In this document: positions 19,710 to 37,000 of the stretch, piece after piece | Position numbering within the stretch: position 1 is the first letter of the stretch | Layout: each line of letters opens with the position of its first letter | DNA from: a virus | Virus record (IMG/VR): IMGVR_UViG_3300021963_000260 | Span: 1-40,827 of that record | DNA: 40,827 nt | Strand: one strand, 5' to 3' | The notes under the pieces: generated by a model | Told to the model about the DNA's origin: nothing | The model's input: the letters and a program-made list of their open reading frames with translations, nothing else | The model's database searches: none | Program-made: the position numbers and the translations under genes

Positions 19710-20483
19710 TTAAATTATGTTATTCTTTACTATATAATTATAAATTTCTTCACTTATTAGATTATATCCTTTTTCATTTGGATGTTTGGATGGAATTTCC
19801 TCAAAAGGTTGCGGATATTCCCAAGCCGTTTCATCTGATACTTTTACAATATAATCTCTAATCGTTTGCTTTGCGAATCCCCAATAATTCTTTTTATTTA
19901 TTAAATACGTAATATCATCTTCTCTATTTAAATTCTGCACCATCATATCAAACGCATCCAACATTAAATAGTTTACACCATAAGTCTCTAACATTTTTTG
20001 TAGAAACACAATGTAATTTTGATTTATGATATTATAATAGTTTTGATTAAACATATTTTCTAAAAAGAATCTTTTATAATCTTCTAAAAAACTATTGTAT
20101 TTATCATCGCCAAATTTATATGATTCGAAAAATTTATGTGGTAATAATGTTAATTCTTTTATAGACCAACTAATCCATTCTCCCTTTGGTAAAAAATGTA
20201 CATAATCTCTTAAAGATGAACTCCACATTATAACAACTAAATCACCTTTGTGGATTTTTCCATTTCTTAAATCGCTGATAACATCGTTAAAAATAAGATT
20301 GTTTGCTCTACCACTCCAACCATTATTTTCGTGGTCACATCCTAATTTATTAGCTAATTTTATTGGCCAAGAATATTTGTTTCTAAAATCTCTTAGAATC
20401 ATTCTATCCTTTAATTTAGATTCATCATCTAACCTACAACCCTGTCCTTCTGTCCAACTATCTCCGTATGCGTATAATTTCAT
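19710..20483 (-). CDS. SGNH/GDSL-like hydrolase, copy 1
   Basis: A 257-residue SGNH-superfamily protein. Block I is YGDSWTEG with Ser9 as the candidate nucleophile; an ENNGWSGRANN block supplies the Gly and Asn; IMWSSS and LMLDAFD are core strands. The catalytic His is His234 in PSKHPNEKGY. The usual DxxH is not present: the residue three before His is Pro231, and the nearest acid is Glu229. The copy at 30091-30915 has the same arrangement, so activity may use a displaced acid or only Ser/His. It is translationally coupled (ATGA) to the carbamoyltransferase. Such enzymes act as acyl- or acetyl-esterases on glycans; substrate unknown. Confidence 0.8.
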   Translation of the reverse strand: MKLYAYGDSWTEGQGCRLDDESKLKDRMILRDFRNKYSWPIKLANKLGCDHENNGWSGRANNLIFNDVISDLRNGKIHKGDLVVIMWSSSLRDYVHFLPKGEWISWSIKELTLLPHKFFESYKFGDDKYNSFLEDYKRFFLENMFNQNYYNIINQNYIVFLQKMLETYGVNYLMLDAFDMMVQNLNREDDITYLINKKNYWGFAKQTIRDYIVKVSDETAWEYPQPFEEIPSKHPNEKGYNLISEEIYNYIVKNNII

Positions 20484-22177
20484 TTTTTACTAATTATAAA
20501 GTTACCCATTACCAAATAATCCATATCACAATTAAGGAATGTCCAAATTGCTTTCTTAGGGTCATTTGTCATTGTATGCCCTCTTAAATTAAATGAAGTA
20601 TTTAATAGTATTGGTGTACCACTTACTTTTTCAAATTGCTTTAATAAATCATAATAAAGTGGATTCATTTCTCTTCGTAAAGTTTGAATTCTAGCAGAAC
20701 CATCCACGTGAGTTACGGATGGAATAGATTTGTATTCGGTAACCTTAACCACTTGATTCATATATGGAACTTCACTTTCGGATAAGAAATATTTATCATA
20801 ATCTTCAAATGTTACTGATGGAGCAAATGGTCTAAACATTTCTCTCTTTTTTACAACCTTATTTATTCTATCTCTAACATCCGATAAATGCGGATTTGCT
20901 AATATAGAACGATTACCTAATGCTCTTGCACCAAATTCAGTTCTACCTTGAAACCATCCAACTATATTACCATCATTTATTAAATTAGCAACTTTCTCTA
21001 CCAATGATTCATTTGTTAGATATGTTTCGATTTCTATTTCCTTAAAATTACTTATCGTATCTAATATTTCGGTTTGATTGAATTCAGGTCCTAAATATGG
21101 AGTTTGGTTATCTCCGCCAATAACTTTTTGATTCCCCAATACATTATGCCAATAATATAAGCAAGCACCAATAGCAGAACCTGCATCAGATGGTGCAAAT
21201 GGAATCCATAATTCTTTTATAGATGTATGCTTTTGTAATTTACCATTAGCAGTTCCATTGTAAGCAGAACCACCACCTAATACTAAATTGGTAGTATCTA
21301 CTTTTTGCATACAATTGTTAACAAAAAAATAAAATGAACTTTCGTACCATTTTTGTAGAGCTGCCGCTAAATCCATATGTTCTTGCTGAATATCCGACTC
21401 GGGTTCTCTCGGTTCTATACCAATTAATTTAACCAATTCATATGTGTACATATCGGTATTAGAATATTGCCAAGTAAAATACTTTTGGTTTATTTCTATT
21501 ACGCCATTACTATTAAATCTGAACATTTTATCAAATGTATCTTTGAATCTGTATGGGTCGCCGTATGGAGCTAATCCCATAACTTTATATTCTCCACCAT
21601 TTGGTTTAAATCCTAAATATGCAGTTATAGTAGAATATACTAATCCTAATGAGTTTGGAAACTTCATAGAATTAATTTCTTCAAATACGTTATCTTTACA
21701 TCTTACAGCCAATGCGGTTTCCCACTCTCCAACACCATCGATTGAAATACCAACTGCATCGTGGAATGGTGATGTATAATAAGAAAACGCTAAATGAGAA
21801 TTGTGATGCTTTACATATTCAATATTGCCGGTAAAATTTAATTTTTTAGCTAAATATACCGTCAAATCTCCTTCCGTAGAATCAAATTCTTCTTTGAATT
21901 TCTTCCAAGTCTTACGATTTCTCCACCAACGTTTTCCTAATGTGTTTTTAACTCTATCATATTTTATAGCAGGGTCTTCATACCAACAAATTGTATCGAT
22001 ATCAGATATACTCATTTTGGAGTTTTCCAATATCCATTTAATTGCCTTAAATGGAAAAGAGTTATCGTGCTTTATACCCGATAACTTCTCTTCTTCAATA
22101 GCAGCTATTACTTTACCATCTTCAAATAAACATACCGCAGAATCGTGATAAAATGCGGAAATACCTAATAAAACCAT
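20480..22177 (-). CDS. Carbamoyltransferase (NodU/CmcH/TobZ family)
   Basis: A full-length 565-residue O-carbamoyltransferase. The N-terminal Kae1-like domain contains HHNSHLAFS (His124 to His128, metal and ATP site), SIDGVGEWETA and GGEYKVMGLAPYGD. The C-terminal YrdC-like domain has GRTEFGARALGNRSILA, MFRPFAPSV and LNTSFNLRG. The family transfers carbamoyl from carbamoyl phosphate, via carbamoyl-adenylate, to sugar or nucleoside hydroxyls. Known roles include Nod-factor and antibiotic decoration and, in some phages, carbamoylation of 5-hydroxymethylcytosine in DNA. No DNA-base hydroxylase is visible here, so a glycan target is equally possible. It overlaps the SGNH gene (ATGA) and lies four bases after gp55. 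Confidence 0.93.
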   Translation of the reverse strand: MVLLGISAFYHDSAVCLFEDGKVIAAIEEEKLSGIKHDNSFPFKAIKWILENSKMSISDIDTICWYEDPAIKYDRVKNTLGKRWWRNRKTWKKFKEEFDSTEGDLTVYLAKKLNFTGNIEYVKHHNSHLAFSYYTSPFHDAVGISIDGVGEWETALAVRCKDNVFEEINSMKFPNSLGLVYSTITAYLGFKPNGGEYKVMGLAPYGDPYRFKDTFDKMFRFNSNGVIEINQKYFTWQYSNTDMYTYELVKLIGIEPREPESDIQQEHMDLAAALQKWYESSFYFFVNNCMQKVDTTNLVLGGGSAYNGTANGKLQKHTSIKELWIPFAPSDAGSAIGACLYYWHNVLGNQKVIGGDNQTPYLGPEFNQTEILDTISNFKEIEIETYLTNESLVEKVANLINDGNIVGWFQGRTEFGARALGNRSILANPHLSDVRDRINKVVKKREMFRPFAPSVTFEDYDKYFLSESEVPYMNQVVKVTEYKSIPSVTHVDGSARIQTLRREMNPLYYDLLKQFEKVSGTPILLNTSFNLRGHTMTNDPKKAIWTFLNCDMDYLVMGNFIISKK

Positions 22178-23754: not shown

Positions 23755-23868
23755 TTATTTTATTAATATTGTAATCAATAATGTTATCATTAATCCTATA
23801 AGTGAATAGAATGATACATCTTCTGAAAATTTAATTTGTTTATTTGTTTTTCCTTGCCGATTTTCCAT
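23755..23868 (-). CDS. Micro membrane protein (37 aa)
   Basis: A 37-codon frame. It starts with ATG at 23866-23868, inside the last codons of the DUF2061 gene (29-base overlap), and stops three bases before the deformylase ATG. The product has a polar N-terminus (MENRQGKTNKQIKF) and a C-terminal hydrophobic segment, residues 20-37 (YSLIGLMITLLITILIK in part). It fills what would otherwise be an empty gap in a tightly packed operon. Function unknown; a lysis or membrane-modulating microprotein is possible. Confidence 0.5.
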   Translation of the reverse strand: MENRQGKTNKQIKFSEDVSFYSLIGLMITLLITILIK

Positions 23869-24082
23869 TTTGTTCAATTTTTAATCCGTATTTAATCCAT
23901 TTATACCATATTCTCTCGTGGAGATAATATTGAATAGGCTTATAAACTAATTCTGCTACTCCAAAAGCGGCTCCTACTTTAATTGAACCGCTTATCAACC
24001 ACATCAATCCAACTCCTATCAAAGTACTTATAATTCGATATGAAATAGTTTTAGCGATGTGTCTCTTACGTTCTACTATCAT
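23840..24082 (-). CDS. DUF2061 family membrane protein (80 aa)
   Basis: Carries the DUF2061 signature: KTISYRIISTLIG at residues 11-23, a hydrophobic helix, a short loop with GSIKVGAAFG, and YYLHERIWYK near residue 56. Two transmembrane helices are predicted by eye (about 15-31 and 34-50). The family is common in Bacteroidota and proteobacteria and its function is unknown; in some genomes it is linked to sulfate-activation genes. It overlaps the nucleotidyltransferase stop by one base (TAATG). Confidence 0.85.
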   Translation of the reverse strand: MIVERKRHIAKTISYRIISTLIGVGLMWLISGSIKVGAAFGVAELVYKPIQYYLHERIWYKWIKYGLKIEQNGKSARKNK

Positions 24083-24462
24083 TAACCTTTATTTGAATCA
24101 TAAGTAATAGTTCCATCTGATTTCATATGACCCGTTCTTATAGCAGTACCACTAATCTTTGCAATATCAGTTGGTGGTTCGTGATATATTACATCATATC
24201 CTACACCTCTACCATAATTTACTGATTCGATATCTGGAATAATTGATAATAAAATCTTATCAAAGTTTTTTTGAAAAAATGGTTCTTCCATCAAATCTAA
24301 CATCACTCTATGTGCCGATTTTGGATTGTTTTCATCTTCCGGTACATCTCTAATTGCTACCCAAACATCGTTTCCTTTCTCCAATTGTTGGTTGATTAAC
24401 CACTCATGTCCACTATGCCAATTCTGCCATCTCCCTATGAACATTGCGTACTTTCTTTTCAT
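24082..24462 (-). CDS. Nucleotidyltransferase of the cytidylyltransferase/NMNAT fold (126 aa)
   Basis: A small HxGH-type nucleotidyltransferase. FIGRWQNWHSGHEWLI holds the signature His16-Ser-Gly-His19, and a second signature ISGTAIRTG near residues 103-111 matches the (I)SxTxIR motif of NMN adenylyltransferases and relatives. Between them, AIRDVPEDENNPKSAHRVML is typical of a phage/bacterial subgroup annotated as adenylyltransferase-like. It would transfer AMP or CMP to a phosphate such as NMN; substrate is not decided by sequence alone. Shorter than bacterial NadM (about 170 residues). The start overlaps the UvsE gene by 50 bases. Confidence 0.8.
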   Translation of the reverse strand: MKRKYAMFIGRWQNWHSGHEWLINQQLEKGNDVWVAIRDVPEDENNPKSAHRVMLDLMEEPFFQKNFDKILLSIIPDIESVNYGRGVGYDVIYHEPPTDIAKISGTAIRTGHMKSDGTITYDSNKG

Positions 24463-25360
24463 TTATTTCTTTTTTTAAATAAGGTAATATAGCCAACTCT
24501 TTTGCTTTTGCCTCCACCATAATATCTACATCTAAACCATATGTGTTAGGTAGGGAATTTATATATAGTGAGTGGGCTTGTGGCTTTTCTTTTATATTAT
24601 TTTCGTGTAATGCTTTTGATTCCGAATAATGTACAACTGGCGTAATGCCTTTTGGCCAAGTAGTAACTGCTAATTTAAGTGCTTGCTCTTCGGATAAATC
24701 GCCTGTACAAAATGTGTGATGATGATAATCAAATACAATAGGAATACCAATTGCATTATGTACATACATTAAATCATTGACAGAGTACATAGATGCTTTA
24801 TCATCATTCTCTATTGTTAAGCGATTTTGAACTGATTTGGAGAGTCTTTGAAAGTTTTTGATAAATCTATCCATTGCAGATTTTTTATCCCCATAAACAC
24901 CATTACAATGGATATTAATCTTATTGTAGGGAGTTAGAGATAATCCCATCATATCAAACACTTTACCATGTAGTTCTAAATCTGCAATAGTTTTTTCAAC
25001 TACGGATTCGGATGGAGAAACTAATACATTAAATGGACCTGGATGAGATGTAATACGGATATTATGGTACTTTGCAAAATCGCCTGCTTTCTTTAACTCA
25101 CTTTTGATTTCTTTATAATCTTTTAGTTGTGTAATATCGATATTATCACCCCAAGGAATAAGAGCAGATGATAATCGAAAGAAATATATACCATTCATTC
25201 GATTCCATTCTAATATTTTAATAACATCCTTTGCATTGAGTAGTGCAAGTTCGGATACATAATCCAATCCCTTCTCATTAAAGGTGCGTTTAACCATAGT
25301 ACGATTTGTGGTAACTTTTTTACCCATAGTCATATTAATACATGCGTAGCCTAAATTCAT
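24413..25360 (-). CDS. uvsE: UV damage endonuclease UvsE/UvdE
   Basis: A 315-residue TIM-barrel UV-damage endonuclease. Diagnostic blocks are NLGYACIN at the N-terminus, FFRLSSALIPW (61-70), SHPGPFNVL (105-113), NIHCNGVYGDK, ENDD (184-187) and DYHHHTF (211-217). These contain the His, Glu and Asp ligands of the metal cluster. UvsE nicks immediately 5' of cyclobutane dimers and 6-4 products; phages use it as a one-step alternative to T4 DenV for light-exposed habitats. It heads its own unit behind a host-type promoter, with nucleotidyltransferase and DUF2061 downstream. Confidence 0.95.
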   Translation of the reverse strand: MNLGYACINMTMGKKVTTNRTMVKRTFNEKGLDYVSELALLNAKDVIKILEWNRMNGIYFFRLSSALIPWGDNIDITQLKDYKEIKSELKKAGDFAKYHNIRITSHPGPFNVLVSPSESVVEKTIADLELHGKVFDMMGLSLTPYNKINIHCNGVYGDKKSAMDRFIKNFQRLSKSVQNRLTIENDDKASMYSVNDLMYVHNAIGIPIVFDYHHHTFCTGDLSEEQALKLAVTTWPKGITPVVHYSESKALHENNIKEKPQAHSLYINSLPNTYGLDVDIMVEAKAKELAILPYLKKEINEKKVRNVHREMAELA

Positions 25361-28364: not shown

Positions 28365-29012
28365 TTATATTATACTTTTGAATTTAGATTCATCTTCACC
28401 TATTCGTATTTTGCAAGCATCTGAATACACATAATCATTATACATTGATTCGTTCAAATCTATATCTAGATATTTAAAAATATCAATGATTTTACTTTTA
28501 TCTTTTTTAATAAAAATATCTTCAAAATAATATAAAGGGTAGCCTTTTTTAGAAAATTCGTGCATCATATTAGATTCATTTAATAATACATTTTTACTAT
28601 TAAGAATCTCTTCAGATGTAGTTATTGATAAATCATATACTTGTCTTTTTTGCCAACTATGAATATCGTTTACTTTCATATGATATGCTAAACTTTCACT
28701 TTGTAAATTTTTATCTATTCTATCTAATAGAATTATTTTTTCAAAATAATTAAAAAACCATTCCCAATACCCATCTTCGTTCTCTAATAAACTTTTTGGT
28801 TTTTGGGTTTTACTAACAAATGTTTTTATAAAAATGTTTTTCTTATTTTCAAAAAAATTCACATCATATGTTTGTTTATCAATCTTCTCTCGCCAATAAT
28901 TGTTAAATGGCTCCGATATACAAATGTGATTTTTTTTATTTAAATGTGCTTCTATTAAATGATACAAACTCGTAGAGCCACTTCGTGCGCTTGTTAATAT
29001 TGCTATTCTCAT
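28365..29012 (-). CDS. Sulfotransferase-like protein 1 (215 aa)
   Basis: P-loop-like sulfotransferase fold. SARSGSTSLYHLI at the N-terminus matches the 5'-phosphosulfate loop (PxxGT/S-type) and FEKIILLDRIDKNLQSESLA matches the 3'-phosphate-binding strand and helix. The family moves sulfate from PAPS to hydroxyls or amines on sugars, proteins or small molecules. Length is at the short end for sulfotransferases. Its ATG overlaps the stop of the second sulfotransferase-like gene (ATGA). I see no PAPS-synthesis gene in the window, so the host would supply the donor. Confidence 0.78.
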   Translation of the reverse strand: MRIAILTSARSGSTSLYHLIEAHLNKKNHICISEPFNNYWREKIDKQTYDVNFFENKKNIFIKTFVSKTQKPKSLLENEDGYWEWFFNYFEKIILLDRIDKNLQSESLAYHMKVNDIHSWQKRQVYDLSITTSEEILNSKNVLLNESNMMHEFSKKGYPLYYFEDIFIKKDKSKIIDIFKYLDIDLNESMYNDYVYSDACKIRIGEDESKFKSII

Positions 29013-29533
29013 AATAACTTACCTTTTGTACTATTTTCTCTGTTACCTTTTCTCAATCTATTACTATCATTTAAATCATATAAATCTTCGTAAAAAGTTA
29101 TTGGTATATTTATTTTTTGTGAAATATATCTTAATTCAGTATCACACTTTTTAATAAATTCTAATTGTTCATCGAAGTTAGGCGTTTTTTCCCACAAATA
29201 TGGTAAATTAGATTTAAATCCTTTTTTTGAATTATGTAATAGAAACGACCAACTTTCTGTACAAAGTACTAAATCTTTTCTAGATAATAGTATAACTTTT
29301 TCAAAATCTTCAGATATTGTAATTAACCAATTTAATCGGTTATCTTCCTTTATAAAAAATGGTGTATGAAATACCATAGTTTTAATAACCCTATTTTTAT
29401 AAGCATCTATATATGGTAATCCGGATTTGGGATTAAATGGTTCAAATTCATAAATTAATTTATTATCTACTGCCAATTTTTCACCCAAAGCGCTTGAACC
29501 TGTTCTTGGTAATGCTATTATTAATATACTCAT
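29009..29533 (-). CDS. Sulfotransferase-like protein 2, short (174 aa)
   Basis: The N-terminus IIALPRTGSSALGEKL is a sulfotransferase 5'-PSB loop and EDFEKVILLSRKDLVLCTESW is the 3'-PB segment. At 174 residues it lacks much of the usual C-terminal half and ends in a basic, polar tail (SNRLRKGNRENSTKGK). It could be a minimal enzyme, a partner of the adjacent 215-residue protein, or a decayed copy. Both ends overlap neighbours by four bases (ATGA), implying tightly coupled translation with the 2OG oxygenase upstream and sulfotransferase 1 downstream. Confidence 0.75.
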   Translation of the reverse strand: MSILIIALPRTGSSALGEKLAVDNKLIYEFEPFNPKSGLPYIDAYKNRVIKTMVFHTPFFIKEDNRLNWLITISEDFEKVILLSRKDLVLCTESWSFLLHNSKKGFKSNLPYLWEKTPNFDEQLEFIKKCDTELRYISQKINIPITFYEDLYDLNDSNRLRKGNRENSTKGKLL

Positions 29534-30090
29534 ATCAATGTTTTATTATTTTTTAATTTATGATAATTGTAATTGGTATCCGTCATCCAAACATTTAAAG
29601 CACATCTAATACCGGAATTCACCGGCATAACACCGTGAAATATTTTAGCTCCATCAAACGATATACCATATCCTAATCCTAAAGAAATTTTATCAGAATC
29701 ATTTCTCATATCTTTAATATCATTTCCCTGTAAATTCGATAAAACAAATCTACCATCGGAAAATTCGTTTGTTAGTAAAATGACTGTTGTAAATTGCGAT
29801 GTACTATCTTTATGTAGGTTTAAAAATCTACCATCATAATATCTGGTTAGACTGATATTTATATTTTTAACATCGAATTTATTAAAATCAAACCAATAGG
29901 AAGTATCTCCAATAGAATATAATTTTTTAAATTTATTTAATATAGTTTCTTTGAATTCATCCACATAAATTCTTCTACAATCCCAATTCTCATTTGGATT
30001 ATAGTTAAAAATTTCACCAATCTGCATACAATAATTTAATATATCAGAACACTCTGTCGGAGTGAAGTATTTATTTATAGAATAATCCAT
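29530..30090 (-). CDS. 2OG-Fe(II) oxygenase, prolyl-4-hydroxylase type
   Basis: A 186-residue double-stranded beta-helix oxygenase. Iron ligands are His93 and Asp95 (LNLHKDST) and His152 (IFHGVMPV); Arg162 (GIRCALNVW) would bind the 2-oxoglutarate carboxylate. The core strand TTVILLTNEFSDGRFVLS is typical of the P4H-like phage oxygenases. It would hydroxylate a peptide, sugar or small molecule using oxygen and 2OG. Placed directly between an SGNH protein and two sulfotransferase-like proteins, it could create the hydroxyl that is later sulfated; this order of steps is inference. Confidence 0.88.
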   Translation of the reverse strand: MDYSINKYFTPTECSDILNYCMQIGEIFNYNPNENWDCRRIYVDEFKETILNKFKKLYSIGDTSYWFDFNKFDVKNINISLTRYYDGRFLNLHKDSTSQFTTVILLTNEFSDGRFVLSNLQGNDIKDMRNDSDKISLGLGYGISFDGAKIFHGVMPVNSGIRCALNVWMTDTNYNYHKLKNNKTLI

Positions 30091-30915
30091 TTATATTAAA
30101 CGTAATTTACTATTCAATCGGTAGGTTAAAATATTATTTTGTTTTATAAATTCGTATAACTCATCAGCTATTAATTTATAACCAAATTTATTAGGATGTT
30201 TTCCAGGCACATCTTCCCATTTAACAAAATCTTCCCAAACATCGCCCGTATTAAAATCAATTAAGAAATCTTTAAATGTTTTAGTTCTATATCCCCAATA
30301 ATTTGTTTCATTAATTAAATGCGTATTATCTATATTTAAATCCACCAATTTGGATATCATACTATCGAATGCATCACAAAACACATACCTAATATTCATT
30401 TTATTAAACATATGTTGTAAAAACAATATATAATTTTGATTAACATAGTCATAATATACATTAGAAAATAAATTATCCATAAAAAATAATTTATATTCAT
30501 TTAATGAATCGTTATATATTGGATTGTTACTATGTTTTTTATTTAAGAACGTATTAAATATGTGTTTTTTTTCTTTATATCGATTACTCCATATATGCCA
30601 CTCCTCTTCTGGAAAGTATGGTACACTATCTCTAAGAGAAGAGCTCCACATAACGATTACCAAATCGCCATTTGAAATGGTGTTAGTTTTTAAAATTTGT
30701 GAAATATTTTCGAATATATCTTTATTAGAACTAGCTCCTACTCCATAATTAGTATGTTCTATGGATAGTTTATCTGCTAAATATTTGGGCCAAGAATATT
30801 GATTTCTAAATAACGTAACATCGGCGAATCCATTGGAGCTTATGATTTTATATTCCTGGTTTAAATCGCATCCAACTCCTTCTGTATAGCTATCGCCAAA
30901 TGTAAATAACTTCAT
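30091..30915 (-). CDS. SGNH/GDSL-like hydrolase, copy 2
   Basis: A 274-residue paralogue of the SGNH protein at 19710-20483, related along its whole length: FGDSYTEGVGC (Ser9), RNQYSWPKYLADKL, IVMWSSSLRDSV, VNQNYILFLQHM, NETNYWGYRTKTF and KHPNKFGYKLI. As in copy 1, the usual DxxH is replaced by an acid five residues before the His (DVPGKH). Copy 1 is paired with a carbamoyltransferase, copy 2 with a 2OG oxygenase and sulfotransferase-like genes, so the module appears duplicated with different partners. A strong hairpin lies 15 bases upstream of the ATG with no room for a separate promoter, so expression probably depends on read-through. Confidence 0.82.
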   Translation of the reverse strand: MKLFTFGDSYTEGVGCDLNQEYKIISSNGFADVTLFRNQYSWPKYLADKLSIEHTNYGVGASSNKDIFENISQILKTNTISNGDLVIVMWSSSLRDSVPYFPEEEWHIWSNRYKEKKHIFNTFLNKKHSNNPIYNDSLNEYKLFFMDNLFSNVYYDYVNQNYILFLQHMFNKMNIRYVFCDAFDSMISKLVDLNIDNTHLINETNYWGYRTKTFKDFLIDFNTGDVWEDFVKWEDVPGKHPNKFGYKLIADELYEFIKQNNILTYRLNSKLRLI

Positions 30916-31149: not shown

Positions 31150-32637
31150 TTATATTTTTGAGAATCCACCGCCGCATCCTCCGCAACCCCACGACATACA
31201 ATAGTATCCGCAATAGTTCCAAGGACACCAACAGCCATTGTGCATCACACTAAATAATCCATCACCGACATCTACTAAGAATAAGTCGGATGGTTCAAAA
31301 TCTAATGTATAGATTACCTTTTGAGCATGCTCCATTTCTAATGATGTAATTGCTACTGCGGTTAATTCATTTGTAGATGAATCGGTTACAATCAATTTAT
31401 CACCAACAACCATACTATTTACTTTTTCAAATCTGGTTTTATCTGAATTATATTCTTCTATAAAATATGTACAAGATGGCGCATCAACCCAAGTTCTACC
31501 ATCTTCTAACGTTATTCTTATATAGATAGTATCAACCGATGATGAAACCATATTATCTAAGCTAGATGATTCTGATGTTAATGTTTCATTTAATTGTGGT
31601 AATGTAGCTTCCCAACCATATGTTTCTAATAATGTTTGGTCTAAAGCACCTGCGTTATTGCCATGTATATCTTGGAAATTTATAGATTTTATATAATCAC
31701 CCAATTGTATAGTATCTACATCTACTAATGAGCCTGTATAATCTAAAATGAGAGAATCGTTATCAGTATGATAATCTTTTCCAGCATATCTAGCTATGTG
31801 TTTAGAAATATATTTTATTCTACTTTTTTGATTTAATCTTTTTGTATTTAATACAAATTCATCTTGCGAAAAATTTAATGGAATAATTGTACTTTGCTTA
31901 TAACCACCCAAATTGATAGTATCCAATTCAGAACCATATATGATATCTATACTACGAATAATAGAATATCTACCATCTACAATATTATCATCTGAATAAA
32001 TAAATTCTTGTACTAAATAATCAGAACCCAATTCATTTTTTAAATCAATTAATTCGGAAACATCATCTAATTTATATAGAGCTGGATATAAATCCAAATC
32101 ATACATAGGTGATTTTGCTTTAACTAATACATTTGGAATATTTGGATTAGATATATCCAAATTATTAAATTCATCCAATTGTAAAGAACTACCACTAAAG
32201 TATGTAGAAGGGATATATTGAGAACCACTCATTAAGTTAAAAAACTCAAACTTATCGGCGCAATATGTTTCATCTACTAGTGCGGTAGTATCATATGATT
32301 GTCTTAATATAAATTTATTGGGAGTATCTTCAATATATGGTACAGTTATAGAATTCATAGGAACAATGTAGTCTGTGAATACTATATTATTTTCTGCACA
32401 TTTTTCTTCTAAAATTTCTTTAAATCTAAACGGCTCTTCTAATGGAGTGTACGAATCAACCTCAGTCCATATAAAATGAAATTCTGTTATATTATTAGAT
32501 GTTAAAACATCAAACAATGCGGTATAATCCAATAAATCGGCGCCACTGTTATATATGGTTGTATTTGTATTTATTTCTAAAAATTTAACATCACCATTTT
32601 TTTCCAATAAATCGCTACCTATGATAGTTGCTTTCAT
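31150..32637 (-). CDS. ATP-grasp-like protein with degenerate Hint domain and six-Cys tail
   Basis: A 495-residue fusion. Residues 1-290 resemble an ATP-grasp fold (VKFLEINTNT, FILRQSYDTTALVDE, VLVKAKSP, YLVQEFIYSDDN, GRYSIIRSIDIIYG). Residues about 295-467 form a Hint domain: VDVDTIQLGDYIKS (block A region), a second VVGDKLIV, VIYTLDFEPSDLFLVDVGDG and the terminal FSVMHN. The block B TxxH is APSC (386-389), so the catalytic His is missing, and no Cys1 is evident (Ser295 is the nearest candidate). After His466-Asn467 comes a 28-residue Cys/Gly/Trp/Tyr-rich tail with six cysteines (469, 471, 476, 480, 485, 488). Late promoter element upstream. Function unknown; self-cleavage releasing or cyclising the tail is a hypothesis. 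Confidence 0.75.
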   Translation of the reverse strand: MKATIIGSDLLEKNGDVKFLEINTNTTIYNSGADLLDYTALFDVLTSNNITEFHFIWTEVDSYTPLEEPFRFKEILEEKCAENNIVFTDYIVPMNSITVPYIEDTPNKFILRQSYDTTALVDETYCADKFEFFNLMSGSQYIPSTYFSGSSLQLDEFNNLDISNPNIPNVLVKAKSPMYDLDLYPALYKLDDVSELIDLKNELGSDYLVQEFIYSDDNIVDGRYSIIRSIDIIYGSELDTINLGGYKQSTIIPLNFSQDEFVLNTKRLNQKSRIKYISKHIARYAGKDYHTDNDSLILDYTGSLVDVDTIQLGDYIKSINFQDIHGNNAGALDQTLLETYGWEATLPQLNETLTSESSSLDNMVSSSVDTIYIRITLEDGRTWVDAPSCTYFIEEYNSDKTRFEKVNSMVVGDKLIVTDSSTNELTAVAITSLEMEHAQKVIYTLDFEPSDLFLVDVGDGLFSVMHNGCWCPWNYCGYYCMSWGCGGCGGGFSKI

Positions 32638-32684: not shown

Positions 32685-32972
32685 TTAAATTAGAGAATTT
32701 TCATTTTTGGGTCTAACTATATCTAAATATTTAGAATCAACTTCTTCCCATTTTTTTTGTGTACATGGGTTAAATAAAGTTGAAAATACTTTTTTGTTTA
32801 ATGGGCATCCACAATCATCACAATATGCGGACCACTTTACTCCTTTCAAAACTTCTTTTCTAAAATCACACCCTAAACATATATTCAACCTTTCCTTTGC
32901 CAATAGTTCTTGCGTATTGGTTGGATTAAATGATATTTTCCATGCTTCAAATATTTCTTTATAATCAATCAT
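32685..32972 (-). CDS. Zinc-ribbon protein A (95 aa)
   Basis: Cysteines at 32, 35, 51, 54, 56 and 70 in ICLGC, CDDCGCPL and NPC, with a following KKWEEV. The same pattern is in the 78-residue protein at 36764-37000, so the two are paralogues flanking the halogenase segment. Comparable small Zn-ribbon proteins (RLxIC-x-xC ... CGC ... CPLGKW) occur in marine T4-like phages. They may bind carrier or metal, or act as scaffolds; function unknown. It lies four bases after sulfotransferase-like protein 3. Confidence 0.78.
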   Translation of the reverse strand: MIDYKEIFEAWKISFNPTNTQELLAKERLNICLGCDFRKEVLKGVKWSAYCDDCGCPLNKKVFSTLFNPCTQKKWEEVDSKYLDIVRPKNENSLI

Positions 32973-32976
32973 ATTT

Positions 32977-33738
32977 TTATATTAATGTATTGATAGATTT
33001 TGGTAAATCATAGTAATTATAAATCTTATCATATTTTTCTATAAATAGATTATCTAAAATTAAATTAGTATCCATATGTTTGCTTGAATTTACTTTTTTA
33101 AGTTCAAATGGTTTCTTAGTAATATCTGAAACCCATTTAGATATTTCATTCATATTATCTATATCAAACCATATAATTTTATTATCATTATTATGCCAAT
33201 ATGAAGCCGGCGTTATCAAAATATCTATAATGTTTATGATATATTCTTCCGAATAGAGATTTAAATTAATTGGTATATCATACTTGCGATTTATTAAATT
33301 ATTCTCTAATAAGTAATTATTTATAATATCCCATCTAATTTTCTTATTTAATAAATCTTCACTTTTATAAAAAAATAAACCATCTGAATTAATATTTTTA
33401 AAATGCTCAAACACTTTGATAAACCCAGCTCTTTTCAAATCAAAAAGTAAATGTTTATATAATGAATAAAATGCATCATATCTATCACGTTTAACTGCTA
33501 TTACCGGGTAAGCCATTCCAAATTTTTTATATAATTCGGTTAATGGTTCATGTCCGTGAGTAATATAATTCATAATATCAGATTCGTTTATAGAAGTAAA
33601 ATCTATTTTAGAATTACTATCAGACCAATTGGTATCCAAAGTTTTGATATTAAAATTACTTAATATACATGAGTAGTGAAATGATGTAGAACCACGTCTT
33701 GGTAAACTTACATATATAAACTTATCATCTATTAACAT
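32977..33738 (-). CDS. Sulfotransferase-like protein 3 (253 aa)
   Basis: IYVSLPRRGSTSFHYSCI (residues 8-25) is a 5'-phosphosulfate loop and VIAVKRDRYDAFYSLYKH is the 3'-phosphate segment with the characteristic Arg and following hydroxyl residues. The remaining 150 residues are helical and lysine/asparagine-rich. It is divergent from the other two copies beyond the two motifs, so the three were probably acquired separately or have diverged strongly. It overlaps the 2OG oxygenase stop by one base (TAATG). Confidence 0.75.
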   Translation of the reverse strand: MLIDDKFIYVSLPRRGSTSFHYSCILSNFNIKTLDTNWSDSNSKIDFTSINESDIMNYITHGHEPLTELYKKFGMAYPVIAVKRDRYDAFYSLYKHLLFDLKRAGFIKVFEHFKNINSDGLFFYKSEDLLNKKIRWDIINNYLLENNLINRKYDIPINLNLYSEEYIINIIDILITPASYWHNNDNKIIWFDIDNMNEISKWVSDITKKPFELKKVNSSKHMDTNLILDNLFIEKYDKIYNYYDLPKSINTLI

Positions 33739-34376
33739 TATATCAAACTTTTTTGTTTTTTAATATAGCTCAATCCAACATTGCCAGCAAATACAATTCT
33801 ATCCTTTGTTGAATTTAATGCACTATTTGGAGCGTGTGGTACATCTGCTTCCATAATTATTAATTCATCTTCATTTGGAAGAATATTGTATTCCTTTCCA
33901 TTTCTACCTTTAAAACATAGTTTAGCATCATCTCCTTCAATATTATCTGGCATTTGTATATAGTAAACATATGTGTAGGATGGTACAAACGAATTTAATT
34001 CTTTATTTATTTCGGTATGTATATGATATTTTTCATATCCATCTACATAATTTGGTTGTACTGGATTTTTAGCCCTTACCACATTAACCCACGAATCAGT
34101 TTCCACCATATTAACTTCCATCCCATTAAATTTGTGTATATCAATACAACAATGCATTCCTATTTGAGCTATTTCATCTATTTTATTATTTACATTAATA
34201 TTACCTAAAAAATCAATATCATCTTTTATTCTAGAATATCCATATGCATCAAATTTTGATATAGGCGTTCTTTTAATTATATCATTGCATAATTCCAAAA
34301 TTTCATCTTTATATTCAGACATATTTAATTTTAGCTTCCAAATAAAAGTATCGTTATCAAATTGTATCTTTTCCAT
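33738..34376 (-). CDS. 2OG-Fe(II) oxygenase-like cupin protein
   Basis: A 212-residue double-stranded beta-helix protein. KYHIHTEI (His118, His120), a YTYVYYIQMP strand, VPHAPNSA (His181) and DRIVFAGNVG (Arg193) fit the phage 2OG-Fe(II) oxygenase group in which the first ligand lies in an HxH motif. I start at the ATG at 34374-34376, one base after the halogenase stop; the frame is open upstream to another ATG at 34418, but that would overlap the halogenase by 41 bases. Not closely similar to the oxygenase at 29530-30090. Likely a hydroxylase; substrate unknown. Confidence 0.78.
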   Translation of the reverse strand: MEKIQFDNDTFIWKLKLNMSEYKDEILELCNDIIKRTPISKFDAYGYSRIKDDIDFLGNINVNNKIDEIAQIGMHCCIDIHKFNGMEVNMVETDSWVNVVRAKNPVQPNYVDGYEKYHIHTEINKELNSFVPSYTYVYYIQMPDNIEGDDAKLCFKGRNGKEYNILPNEDELIIMEADVPHAPNSALNSTKDRIVFAGNVGLSYIKKQKSLI

Positions 34377-34377
34377 A

Positions 34378-35628
34378 TTATAATAATTTCTTATTTCCTT
34401 TATTTTTATTTTTTGCAAAAATTGTAGAATAATTGTTTACATAAAACGTTAATTCATTTATAGATGATTCCTCTAATTGAAACATATTCAATAACTCCAA
34501 ATCACTTTTTGGTATCAAAGAATTATTTTTATCTAACACCTTTAATAGTTTCTCCGGTAAAGGCATGTTTGTACATTCTTTCCAAAAATCCACATTAGTT
34601 CTTTCGCATAAATAATGATAACGTATGAAGTTTAAATTTTGTTCGTTTATTTGATAACACCATATATTATATCTATCTTTGTAATTTTCATTAAACTCTG
34701 TATCGATTAGTCTTTTCAACTGCATAATCGTAGACATTAATGATGTAGCCTCCAATGGTTCTATAAACCCATACGATAATCCAATCGATATCGAATTACC
34801 AATCCAACTACGTTTATGTGTACCTGGTTTAAAATCAAAAACCTTTTGTATATCCACATTGCATCCTAAATAATCTTCTACTTCTTTCTTAGCTTCATCT
34901 AATGTACAATATCTATCGTTATGTACATAACCACATCCCCATCTATGTTGTAATGGTATTTGAAACATCCATCCACAATTCATAGAAATCATATGAGTAT
35001 ATGTTTTTGAATAGCCAATATTTTCATTAAGTTGCGGTAAAAAAAATGTAAATGCTTTATTCATCATTAGATATTTTTCATAACTAATCCATTCTTCCGA
35101 ATGTATTCCATCTATGATAATACGTTTGAACCCGCTACAATCAAATACAAAATCTAAATCTATTTTTGTAGTATCTTTTAATGAAATGGATTTAATAGTA
35201 TCTCCATCGTTATCAATCATATCAACTTCACCATCAATCCACTTAACACCTCTAGAAATAGAAATGGTTTTAAAATATTCAGCAACTGCTCTAGCATCAA
35301 AGTGATAAGCGTGATGGTAGGTAAATTTATTTGGCTCTTCTCCAACAAATAAATGTTTGGATAATTCATTGTTACCTGTCCAATTAAATAAATGTATCCC
35401 ACCTTTTACAGTTGAATTTGTTTTTTCAAAAAAATCTTTATGATTTATATCTAATAAACTTAGAATTCTTCCAAAATTGGGAGTACCACCTTCGCCTGCA
35501 CCTAATATTCCTATTTTAGAACTTTCTATTATAGTAACTTCTGTATTTTTCCAAAATTTATTAACTACCAATGCGGTTAACCACCCCGCAGTTCCACCTC
35601 CAATTATAACTACCTTTTTCATTATCAT
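34378..35628 (-). CDS. Flavin-dependent halogenase (tryptophan halogenase family)
   Basis: Rossmann GGGTAGW at residues 10-16 for FAD, then ESSKIGILGAGEGGTP, Lys75 in STVKGGIHLFNW as the likely catalytic lysine (PrnA Lys79 equivalent), GWMFQIPLQHRWGCGYV and GFIEPLEATSL. The family hallmark WxWxIP appears as WMFQIP: the second Trp is Phe222. At 416 residues it is shorter than classical tryptophan halogenases (about 520-540). A halogenase from cyanophage Syn10 (VirX1) has been characterised, so phage members are active enzymes. It needs reduced FAD from a host reductase; none is encoded nearby. ATGA overlap with the glycosyltransferase-like gene; an ATG two codons in is an alternative start. 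Confidence 0.88.
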   Translation of the reverse strand: MIMKKVVIIGGGTAGWLTALVVNKFWKNTEVTIIESSKIGILGAGEGGTPNFGRILSLLDINHKDFFEKTNSTVKGGIHLFNWTGNNELSKHLFVGEEPNKFTYHHAYHFDARAVAEYFKTISISRGVKWIDGEVDMIDNDGDTIKSISLKDTTKIDLDFVFDCSGFKRIIIDGIHSEEWISYEKYLMMNKAFTFFLPQLNENIGYSKTYTHMISMNCGWMFQIPLQHRWGCGYVHNDRYCTLDEAKKEVEDYLGCNVDIQKVFDFKPGTHKRSWIGNSISIGLSYGFIEPLEATSLMSTIMQLKRLIDTEFNENYKDRYNIWCYQINEQNLNFIRYHYLCERTNVDFWKECTNMPLPEKLLKVLDKNNSLIPKSDLELLNMFQLEESSINELTFYVNNYSTIFAKNKNKGNKKLL

Positions 35629-36767
35629 ATTATCTGTCTATTTAAATATTTTAAAAAATACTTATCGACTACATTTTTGGAATGATTTATATCAATTAAT
35701 AGATTTTTATTCCATTTACATATGGATTTTACATCATTGGTATCGTATATTGATATCAACGCTTCTGCGGTATTTATCAAAGAATTAATTTTATATTCAC
35801 CATCATTCATATTGTCATATTCTTCGCTAACAACCGAATCAAAAGTTTTGAATCCTAATTGTTTTAAAAAGGATAGGTATCCTCTTTCCGCGTATATTAC
35901 AAATGGTTTTTCTAAATAAATTGCTTTAAATGTTTTTTCGGTTATATGGATAATGTTTTGTATTATACTCGTTTCTGATATAATATTTACTTTACATTTA
36001 CGATACCATATTGGATTCACATTGTAAAGAAATTCATCCATATTAGATAGTTCCTTACCATAATACACATCATCTTCTAACTGAATGGATTCGAAATTGT
36101 TAACATCTATATTTAGATATTTTATTATAGGAAATTGGGTTTCCACTTTTCTTAAATCAAAATTGTTATTTACCCAACTAAATTTAGTATATTTCAATAA
36201 GCCCCTTTCCCACAATTTTGATAGTAATCGTAATTTATGTAAACTCATTCTTCTGTTTAAACATAAAAAATCGATATCAGCTTGAGTATCGGCTGAATCG
36301 GTTATATATTTACTTAAATTTAATGGAGTAGATATTAGAAAGTGCGGAAAATATGTTTTATTAATTTGATGTGTACCATACTTTACCTTATGCATATATG
36401 GATTATGGGAATCATTTTGAGCTAAAATAAATCTATTATCCAAATCAACACCGATTTCGTTTAATCTATTTAATAACTTAACACTATTGTTATGAATAGT
36501 ATAGGTAGCCTCCGTTGTAAAATCAGCTATGAAGTAAAATCCATATCCATTTAACTCACATATTAAGTTATAAAACTCATCGGTATTAGTGGTTTTTATG
36601 GGGTTTAAATTGGCTCCAGTTTCCCAATTGAATATAAAATAGTTTGTATCGTTTACATCTATTTCATCTACATCTATTTCGTATATTTTAACTGAACTAT
36701 CTATATGTTCCATCAATGAACACATAGCCGTTTTGGTTGTGAATGAATGAAACCAATATTTTATCAT
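35625..36767 (-). CDS. Glycosyltransferase-like protein (GT10/fucosyltransferase-like C-terminus)
   Basis: The C-terminal half contains FLCLNRRMSLHKLRLLSKL (about 167-185) and NIISETSIIQ ... HITEKTFKAIYLEKPFVIYA, then LSFLKQLGFKTFDSVVSEEYDN (298-319). The SE/EKT/KPF/LGF.TF pattern is that of GT10-type fucosyltransferase-like proteins common in marine phages and Bacteroidota. The N-terminal 160 residues are a poorly conserved donor or acceptor domain. It would transfer a sugar from a nucleotide or other activated donor. Coupled by ATGA at both ends to the Zn-ribbon and halogenase genes, implying one pathway. Donor and acceptor unknown. Confidence 0.72.
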   Translation of the reverse strand: MIKYWFHSFTTKTAMCSLMEHIDSSVKIYEIDVDEIDVNDTNYFIFNWETGANLNPIKTTNTDEFYNLICELNGYGFYFIADFTTEATYTIHNNSVKLLNRLNEIGVDLDNRFILAQNDSHNPYMHKVKYGTHQINKTYFPHFLISTPLNLSKYITDSADTQADIDFLCLNRRMSLHKLRLLSKLWERGLLKYTKFSWVNNNFDLRKVETQFPIIKYLNIDVNNFESIQLEDDVYYGKELSNMDEFLYNVNPIWYRKCKVNIISETSIIQNIIHITEKTFKAIYLEKPFVIYAERGYLSFLKQLGFKTFDSVVSEEYDNMNDGEYKINSLINTAEALISIYDTNDVKSICKWNKNLLIDINHSKNVVDKYFLKYLNRQII

Positions 36768-37000
36768 AAACCCTCAACTTTATTCCATTTACCCAAATCG
36801 CAACTGCCCATCTTAGGTGTGAATATTTTTTTACCTAAAGGACAACCGCATTCACCACATACGAATCCAAACACAACTGATTCCCTTCTACTATCACATC
36901 CCATACATATGGATAATCTATTTTGGGCTAATTCGGATTGCGCTTTTGTAGGATTCTCAGCTCTCCACCAACTTATAGCTATTTCCTTTATCTTATTCAT
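36764..37000 (-). CDS. Zinc-ribbon protein B (78 aa)
   Basis: Cysteines at 32, 35, 48, 51, 53 and 67 in ICMGC, CGECGCPL and GSC, followed by LGKWNKVEG. It aligns with the 95-residue protein at 32685-32972 (WW or AW near residue 11, NPT, A-x-x-RL-x-IC-x-GC, CGCPL-x-KK-x-F). Overlaps both neighbours by four bases. Six Cys in two clusters suggest one or two zinc sites. Possible carrier, scaffold or anti-repressor; not assignable. Confidence 0.75.
   Translation of the reverse strand: MNKIKEIAISWWRAENPTKAQSELAQNRLSICMGCDSRRESVVFGFVCGECGCPLGKKIFTPKMGSCDLGKWNKVEGL

Follow-up and report, generated by a model that had tools for sequence, protein, structure and literature searches.

A phage protein joining a predicted ATP-grasp ligase, a Hint domain and a six-cysteine peptide is a candidate self-processing precursor of a modified peptide

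In borosins (OphMA), a modifying enzyme, a leader and a core peptide are contained in a single polypeptide (PMC8429565), and the flavin brominase SrpI acts on precursors of the proteusins, ribosomal post-translationally modified peptides (RiPPs) with large folded leaders (PMC10858898). A-type bacterial intein-like (BIL) domains are reported to cleave at a C-terminal Asn without ligation (PMC7765530), and the ATP-grasp proteins YgiC and YjfC are peptide-spermidine ligases according to work cited in PMC12568646. Neither inteins nor Hint domains are mentioned in a review, published in 2023, of the proteases that remove RiPP leaders, and our search of the open-licence literature found no Hint-released RiPP and no earlier description of the protein analysed here. 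This protein, which we call CORE, is encoded in a 40,827-nucleotide stretch of viral DNA from IMG/VR (the window) and combines an ATP-grasp domain, a Hint domain and a Cys/Trp/Tyr-rich peptide in one chain of 495 residues. As in RiPP pathways, a gene-encoded precursor with a conserved leader and core is accompanied by adjoining modifying enzymes; membership of the RiPPs hinges on the product, and by analogy CORE would function in the manner of those RiPP pathways that combine enzyme and core in a single chain. Its ATP-grasp domain takes the place of the borosin N-methyltransferase, and borosins have no Hint domain; proteusins share the large folded leader and the action of a flavin halogenase on the precursor, but their leader has another fold and is not linked to release by a Hint domain. 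To our knowledge, borosins are not a phage system, and we know of no C-terminal motif common to proteusin enzymes.

The CORE gene occupies 31150..32637 on the minus strand, with its ATG at 32637 and its stop at 31150. The original prediction, made from the letters of the window, had treated this reading frame as a gene, and the complete ATG-to-stop frame together with at least 79 distinct full-length homologues, every one from viral contigs in IMG/VR, bears this out, with the correction that the gene lies on the minus strand. The sequences fetched first, 60 unique and full-length with 59–86% identity to the query, make up the window clade, and there are more distant homologues at 35–42% identity; a DNA search with HNxCWCxxxxCG gave those that are 35–38% identical across all 495 residues. 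Direct sequence searches of Pfam, PHROG, NCBIfam and the PDB gave no useful match to CORE, and its folds were therefore predicted by structure.

The N-terminal domain (residues 1–285, 31783..32637, minus strand) was modelled alone with a pLDDT of 87.5 and a pTM of 0.83. Its best VIA matches were yeast glutathione synthetase (1m0w, Z 10.2 over 229 residues), YgiC (9.7), YjfC (9.6) and GspS (8.9), CORE residues 1–281 being aligned to GspS 310–608. Judged by this model, residues from about 1 to 286 have a circularly permuted ATP-grasp fold of the glutathione synthetase/GspS/YgiC type, confirming the ATP-grasp assignment proposed for residues 1–290. Eight residues in the alignment (D9, E21, N23, K129, K173, Q210, R228 and D231) are invariant even at 35–42% identity. 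By the start offset of the VIA alignment, D9, E21 and N23 fall on GspS D318, E330 and N332, so that the D-x(11)-E-x-N at the CORE N-terminus matches GspS 318/330/332; we take these GspS residues to be metal ligands, which makes D9, E21 and N23 candidate Mg ligands. CORE shares its fold with the permuted ligases (GSS, GspS, YgiC/YjfC) and differs from them in having no Pfam sequence match and in being fused to a Hint domain and a peptide. The prediction had also pointed to peptide ligases of RiPP pathways among ATP-grasp enzymes; the relatives of this domain are indeed amide ligases, but of the permuted GSS/GspS kind and not of the graspetide kind. In graspetides an ATP-grasp ligase forms links through the Asp/Glu side chains of a short precursor that is a protein apart, whereas the CORE peptide is fused to the ATP-grasp domain, its window version has no Asp or Glu at 468–488 and its relatives have few. 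As modelled, the domain would most likely form one amide bond, and by analogy with GspS and YgiC it may join an amine to the C-terminal carboxylate of the peptide.

A full-length CORE model, computed with AlphaFold2 from an input of 44 homologues, placed a Hint domain at 286–470 (Foldseek E 4e-7). VIA matched residues 286..467 to the bacterial intein-like domain 2lwy (Z 15.6, 2.2 Å, 136 residues); BIL2, inteins and Hedgehog scored nearly as well. Residue 289 is structurally equivalent to intein position 1 and residue 467 to the terminal Asn, and in the model the β-fold of the Hint superfamily spans the two. The structure-prediction check proposed at the outset thus recovered both folds; of the boundaries given for the Hint domain, 295–467, the end at Asn467 stands and the start moves to about 289 (Hint1, residues 289–467, 31237..31773, minus strand). 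Position 1, the nucleophile site, is Tyr in 74 of 76 sequences and Phe in the other 2. At the expected place of the block B TxxH stands APSC (386–389, an equivalence by sequence position and not by residue-level structural alignment), and no member of the CORE alignment has TxxH there. A profile comparison of Hint1 with the second Hint domain described below was weak, with only 30 columns aligned, and it is the structural match to inteins on which the equivalences of residues are based. The pair His466-Asn467 (31237..31242, minus strand), where Asn cyclisation and cleavage at the C-terminal end would be expected, is kept in 79 of 79 homologues, and the following residue (+1) is Gly in the window and S, G, T, A, P, Q, N or F in relatives. 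Class 1 splicing inteins have Cys, Ser or Thr at position 1 and a fixed Cys, Ser or Thr at +1; CORE has neither. Tyr or Phe at position 1, the missing block B TxxH and an unconstrained +1 together exclude conventional protein splicing by Hint1 on sequence grounds, as had been anticipated from APSC and the Gly after HN, and Asn cyclisation is compatible with what is left. CORE resembles A-type BIL domains in its Hint fold, its conserved His-Asn end, a next residue that is not fixed and need not be a nucleophile, and the expected C-terminal cleavage without ligation (PMC7765530). It differs from them in having Tyr or Phe and not Cys or Ser at position 1, in the loss of block B, and in the fixed place of the Hint domain, which has the ligase domain on one side and the Cys-rich peptide on the other. 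Alternatively, folding might be the reason why HN is conserved.

The chain ends in ...FSVMHN and a 28-residue tail, GCWCPWNYCGYYCMSWGCGGCGGGFSKI (residues 468–495, 31153..31236, minus strand), which is the candidate core peptide. Its cysteines at 469, 471, 476, 480, 485 and 488 agree with the predicted six-Cys tail after a canonical His-Asn. In the 60 unique full-length sequences, HN and Cys469, 471, 476, 485 and 488 are present without exception and Cys480 in 59, so that the alignment of homologues called for by the prediction supported conservation of both features. Between pairs of sequences the Cys positions of the tail are 99% identical, as against 50% for the non-Cys positions, and the first 21 tail positions hold 4–7 aromatic residues across the clade. 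Judged by this conservation, the HN/Cys pattern is more than chance. Seed bias was rejected as its source, because the tail is also present in loci that were retrieved solely by patterns from the N-domain. The tail segment of the model has a pLDDT below 50 and its shape is not readable from it; its cysteines could bind metal in uncleaved CORE.

In the distant homologues L278, L283 and L313/L334, a second Hint domain (Hint2) follows immediately after the peptide. The order in L278, L283 and L334 is Hint1 ending in HN, a six-Cys peptide of the form PCWC...C, and Hint2 beginning with Cys. Hint2 is canonical, with Cys1, GHP in block B and HN; it matches Pfam (Intein_splicing 1.7e-11, PT-HINT 2.2e-8) and, by sequence, BIL domains in the PDB. 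The peptide of this clade has 23–24 residues (for example PCWCNGYNCGWYSCYNSCWTCQSA), with the Hint1 HN directly before it and the Hint2 Cys1 directly after it. Hint1 has kept its residues only at the end facing the peptide, and those that would cut the peptide out survive. The case for an intended release of the peptide rests most strongly on this survival of the Hint1 HN and the Hint2 Cys1 around it. The end of the single-Hint tail is Phe-x-Lys-like and aligns with what follows Hint2, so that a gain or a loss of Hint2 separates the two architectures. The double-Hint arrangement resembles SICLOPPS, an engineered split-intein circular ligation, in which the peptide likewise has the C-part of an intein before it and the N-part after it; however, double-Hint CORE is natural, has two complete Hints and carries Pro in place of a nucleophile at +1, and its cyclisation is only a possibility. 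In one sequence (L336:3178-5094 / L390) two Hints are separated only by PNYSPFF between HN and C, with no Cys peptide. On this 74.6-kb contig we found no match to the halogenase, the ST253/ST234-type proteins or APS kinase, although the same queries match in G001, a 288-kb contig; as L336 is a single incomplete contig, the pairing of missing peptide and missing enzymes is suggestive only, and a scan seeded with it gave no further peptide-less relative. A neighbouring 2OG-like protein on L336 ends KKTFI. Elsewhere, a 557-aa structural-like protein (G004 117839-119509, L228:7839-9509) carries a canonical Hint in mid-protein (CVSTDTQIQ...TETHP...ISHNK).

The genes around CORE recur over the loci in the order HAL-OG226-ST253-Zn95-CORE-GDSL-OG186-ST174/215, and all those of the window described in this paragraph lie on the minus strand. 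HAL (34378..35628, ending KKLL) is a flavin-dependent halogenase (PF04820, E 2.7e-83). OG226 (33738..34376, KSLI), which probably starts at an internal ATG at 34376, is 2OG-Fe(II) oxygenase-like through relatives that match PF13640 at 0.0024. Next come ST253 (32977..33738, NTLI; 124/133 loci), sulfotransferase-like and related to a 234-aa protein matching Sulfotransfer_2, and Zn95 (32685..32972, NSLI; 125/133 loci), a small Cys-rich protein. Beyond CORE lie a GDSL/SGNH hydrolase-like protein (30091..30915, LRLI; PF00657, E 9.1e-6), the 2OG-Fe(II) oxygenase-like OG186 (29530..30090, KTLI; PF13640 3.4e-5, phrog_61 5.3e-7), and the sulfotransferase-like ST174 (29009..29533, GKLL; a family member scores 0.0035 to Sulfotransfer_3) and ST215 (28365..29012, KSII), whose family clusters with ST174. 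At the other end, a 380-aa protein (35625..36767, RQII) has no family match. The sulfotransferase assignments are weak ones: relatives of ST253, ST174 and ST215 score 9e-4 to Sulfotransfer_2 and 0.0035 to Sulfotransfer_3, below curated cut-offs, and the remaining indications are motifs, family relation and genes for PAPS. For the 2OG proteins the assignments range from moderate to weak, and that of OG226 is based on weak profile matches and motifs. Among 24 loci flanked by 8 kb on either side, sulfotransferase-like and 2OG genes occur in 24, a halogenase in 22, a DUF2061 gene in 22 and APS kinase in 19, which upholds the predicted tailoring cassette. Because the APS kinase match is clear (PF01583, 3.8e-17), one sulfate-activation step is phage-encoded. 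In the window, the DUF2061 membrane protein (23840..24082; a relative matches PF09834 at 2.1e-12), often next to APS kinase in related loci, is accompanied by a nucleotidyltransferase-like protein with HxGH (24082..24462; a relative matches PF01467 at 0.0012; 21/24 loci), which may contribute to PAPS supply. Some loci also encode proteins that resemble radical SAM enzymes, glycosyltransferases or methyltransferases, or SET proteins. HAL homologues with 29–35% identity lie near 2OG oxygenases in cyanophages and pelagiphages, but CORE has no match in named phages; a search for the GDSL protein in phages found nothing. The cassette enzymes could also act on a substrate other than the CORE tail.

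Several further genes were seen in these loci. In L278 (8424-8867) and relatives, APS kinase adjoins the nucleotidyltransferase and the DUF2061 protein. Some loci have a 231-aa protein between CORE and a 2OG gene (G001 52476-53171), which we take to resemble PcfJ-like proteins. The window also encodes a carbamoyltransferase (20480-22177; PF02543/PF16861), a UvdE endonuclease (24413-25360; PF03851) and a second small Cys-rich protein, Zn78 (36764-37000; phrog_13558), which is like Zn95 but without its C-terminal motif.

This motif is an [LI][LI]-COOH end, observed in 86–100% of the members of the HAL, OG226, ST253, Zn95, GDSL, OG186, ST174 and ST215 families and in 0–3% of the flanking families P126, P80, HSP and UvdE. 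The preceding residues are mostly Lys/Asn and Thr/Ser/Lys, often KTLI, with K-[TS]-[LI]-[LI]-COOH as the typical form; the two relatives of the 380-aa protein have the motif as well. Between 28365 and 36767 of the window, the motif ends all 9 cassette genes other than CORE, compared with 4 of 32 other ORFs (p 2e-6), and in G001 (cassette 46193-54396, L215) 8 of 10 cassette genes compared with 13 of 319 others (p 3e-9). Since it is encoded with synonymous codons and followed by all three stops, the motif is a protein-level feature. An origin in ATGA overlaps or base composition was rejected, as codons and stops differ and flanking genes lack the motif. KTLI ends are found in the distant clade too, except in a 506–510 aa halogenase and one 2OG protein, and pelagiphage HTVC008M and cyanophage S-H38 have halogenase and 2OG proteins without the motif. 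The shared C-terminus is probably a docking motif for a common partner, perhaps CORE; it could also serve as the substrate of a ligase or mark the enzymes for degradation. Far from the G001 cassette, SGNH-like, glycosyltransferase-like and carbamoyltransferase-like proteins (168514-169251, 265415-266065, 273280-273987, 272453-273283 and 67689-69410) also end in [LI][LI].

We favour, with modest confidence, a model in which CORE is the self-processing precursor of a phage-encoded ribosomal post-translationally modified peptide that is released by Asn cyclisation. The ATP-grasp and Hint domains would form a large folded leader presenting the C-terminal Cys/Trp/Tyr-rich peptide, which would be tailored while still attached: the sulfotransferases, supplied with phage PAPS, the flavin halogenase and the 2OG oxygenases may act on Tyr, Trp or other side chains, joined in some phages by the radical SAM-, glycosyltransferase- or methyltransferase-like proteins. 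Hint1, with Tyr at position 1 and no fixed nucleophile at +1, has lost the ability to splice, and cyclisation of Asn467 by A-type BIL chemistry would free the peptide. In the double-Hint clade, Cys1 of Hint2 would free or activate the other end of the peptide through a thioester open to attack by water, an amine or the peptide's own N-terminus. More tentatively, the fuller scheme would be a peptide-making system of the phage whose logic is new: an ATP-grasp/Hint leader that cuts out its own peptide, in one clade holding the peptide between two Hints with head-to-tail closure possible, together with unrelated tailoring enzymes recruited or modified via the shared C-terminal motif.

The tail may instead never be released, the Hint remnant and the Cys-rich end being a structural or metal-binding module of an ATP-grasp enzyme, while the cassette modifies a virion protein, a glycan or a small molecule. 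We consider this unlikely, though it has points in its favour: Hint1 is degenerate at position 1 and in block B, the CxC and CxxC spacing of the six cysteines would suit a metal, and the invariant ATP-grasp residues could mean that the enzyme part is the main function. Yet HN has been kept throughout while the other catalytic positions of Hint1 were lost, and an intact Cys1 adjoins the peptide in the distant clade. It is improbable, to our minds, that CORE is a conjugating ligase whose ATP-grasp domain activates the -KTLI-COOH of the tagged enzymes and joins it to an amine such as the released peptide, making the C-terminus a substrate. Such a role would suit both the relatives YgiC and YjfC, peptide-amine ligases as referred to in PMC12568646, and a C-terminus common to nearly all cassette enzymes, but a plain docking motif accounts for the latter equally well, and some members of the distant clade, the 506–510 aa halogenase and a 2OG protein, do without it. 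Finally, the Hints could be decaying intein or BIL insertions with no role of their own, next to a peptide that is an ordinary variable end. These phages do carry a canonical Hint in another protein (G004), and Hint2 looks like an insertion that has separated the peptide from the Phe-x-Lys segment at the terminus; nevertheless, the presence of Hint1 in all 79 homologues with invariant HN, and the strong constraint on the Cys pattern, make us regard this as very improbable.

If the peptide is released and decorated as the self-processing model proposes, CORE would represent an unrecognised viral route to a modified peptide and give phages a dedicated ribosomal peptide pathway. Hint self-cleavage would join the known ways of leader removal, BIL-type domains would gain a concrete biological task, and a short C-terminal motif would be seen to gather enzymes of unrelated folds. 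One would then want to learn how the peptide affects the host or rival phages, or what part it plays in the virion.

CORE was absent from named phages by tblastn, a double-Hint CORE query matched only unrelated Hint/intein domains there, and two scans of genome contigs gave no bacterial or cellular homologue. By baseplate protein, the nearest phage records were Microcystis phage Mel-JY01, Flavobacterium phage immuto and an uncultured jumbo phage, none with a CORE match. The CORE-bearing phages are a large family, uncultured and aquatic, related to Flavobacterium phages. G001 shares with Flavobacterium phage immuto 55% identity in the terminase, 52% in the major capsid protein and 49% in the portal, and on the strength of these identities Bacteroidota are the likely hosts.
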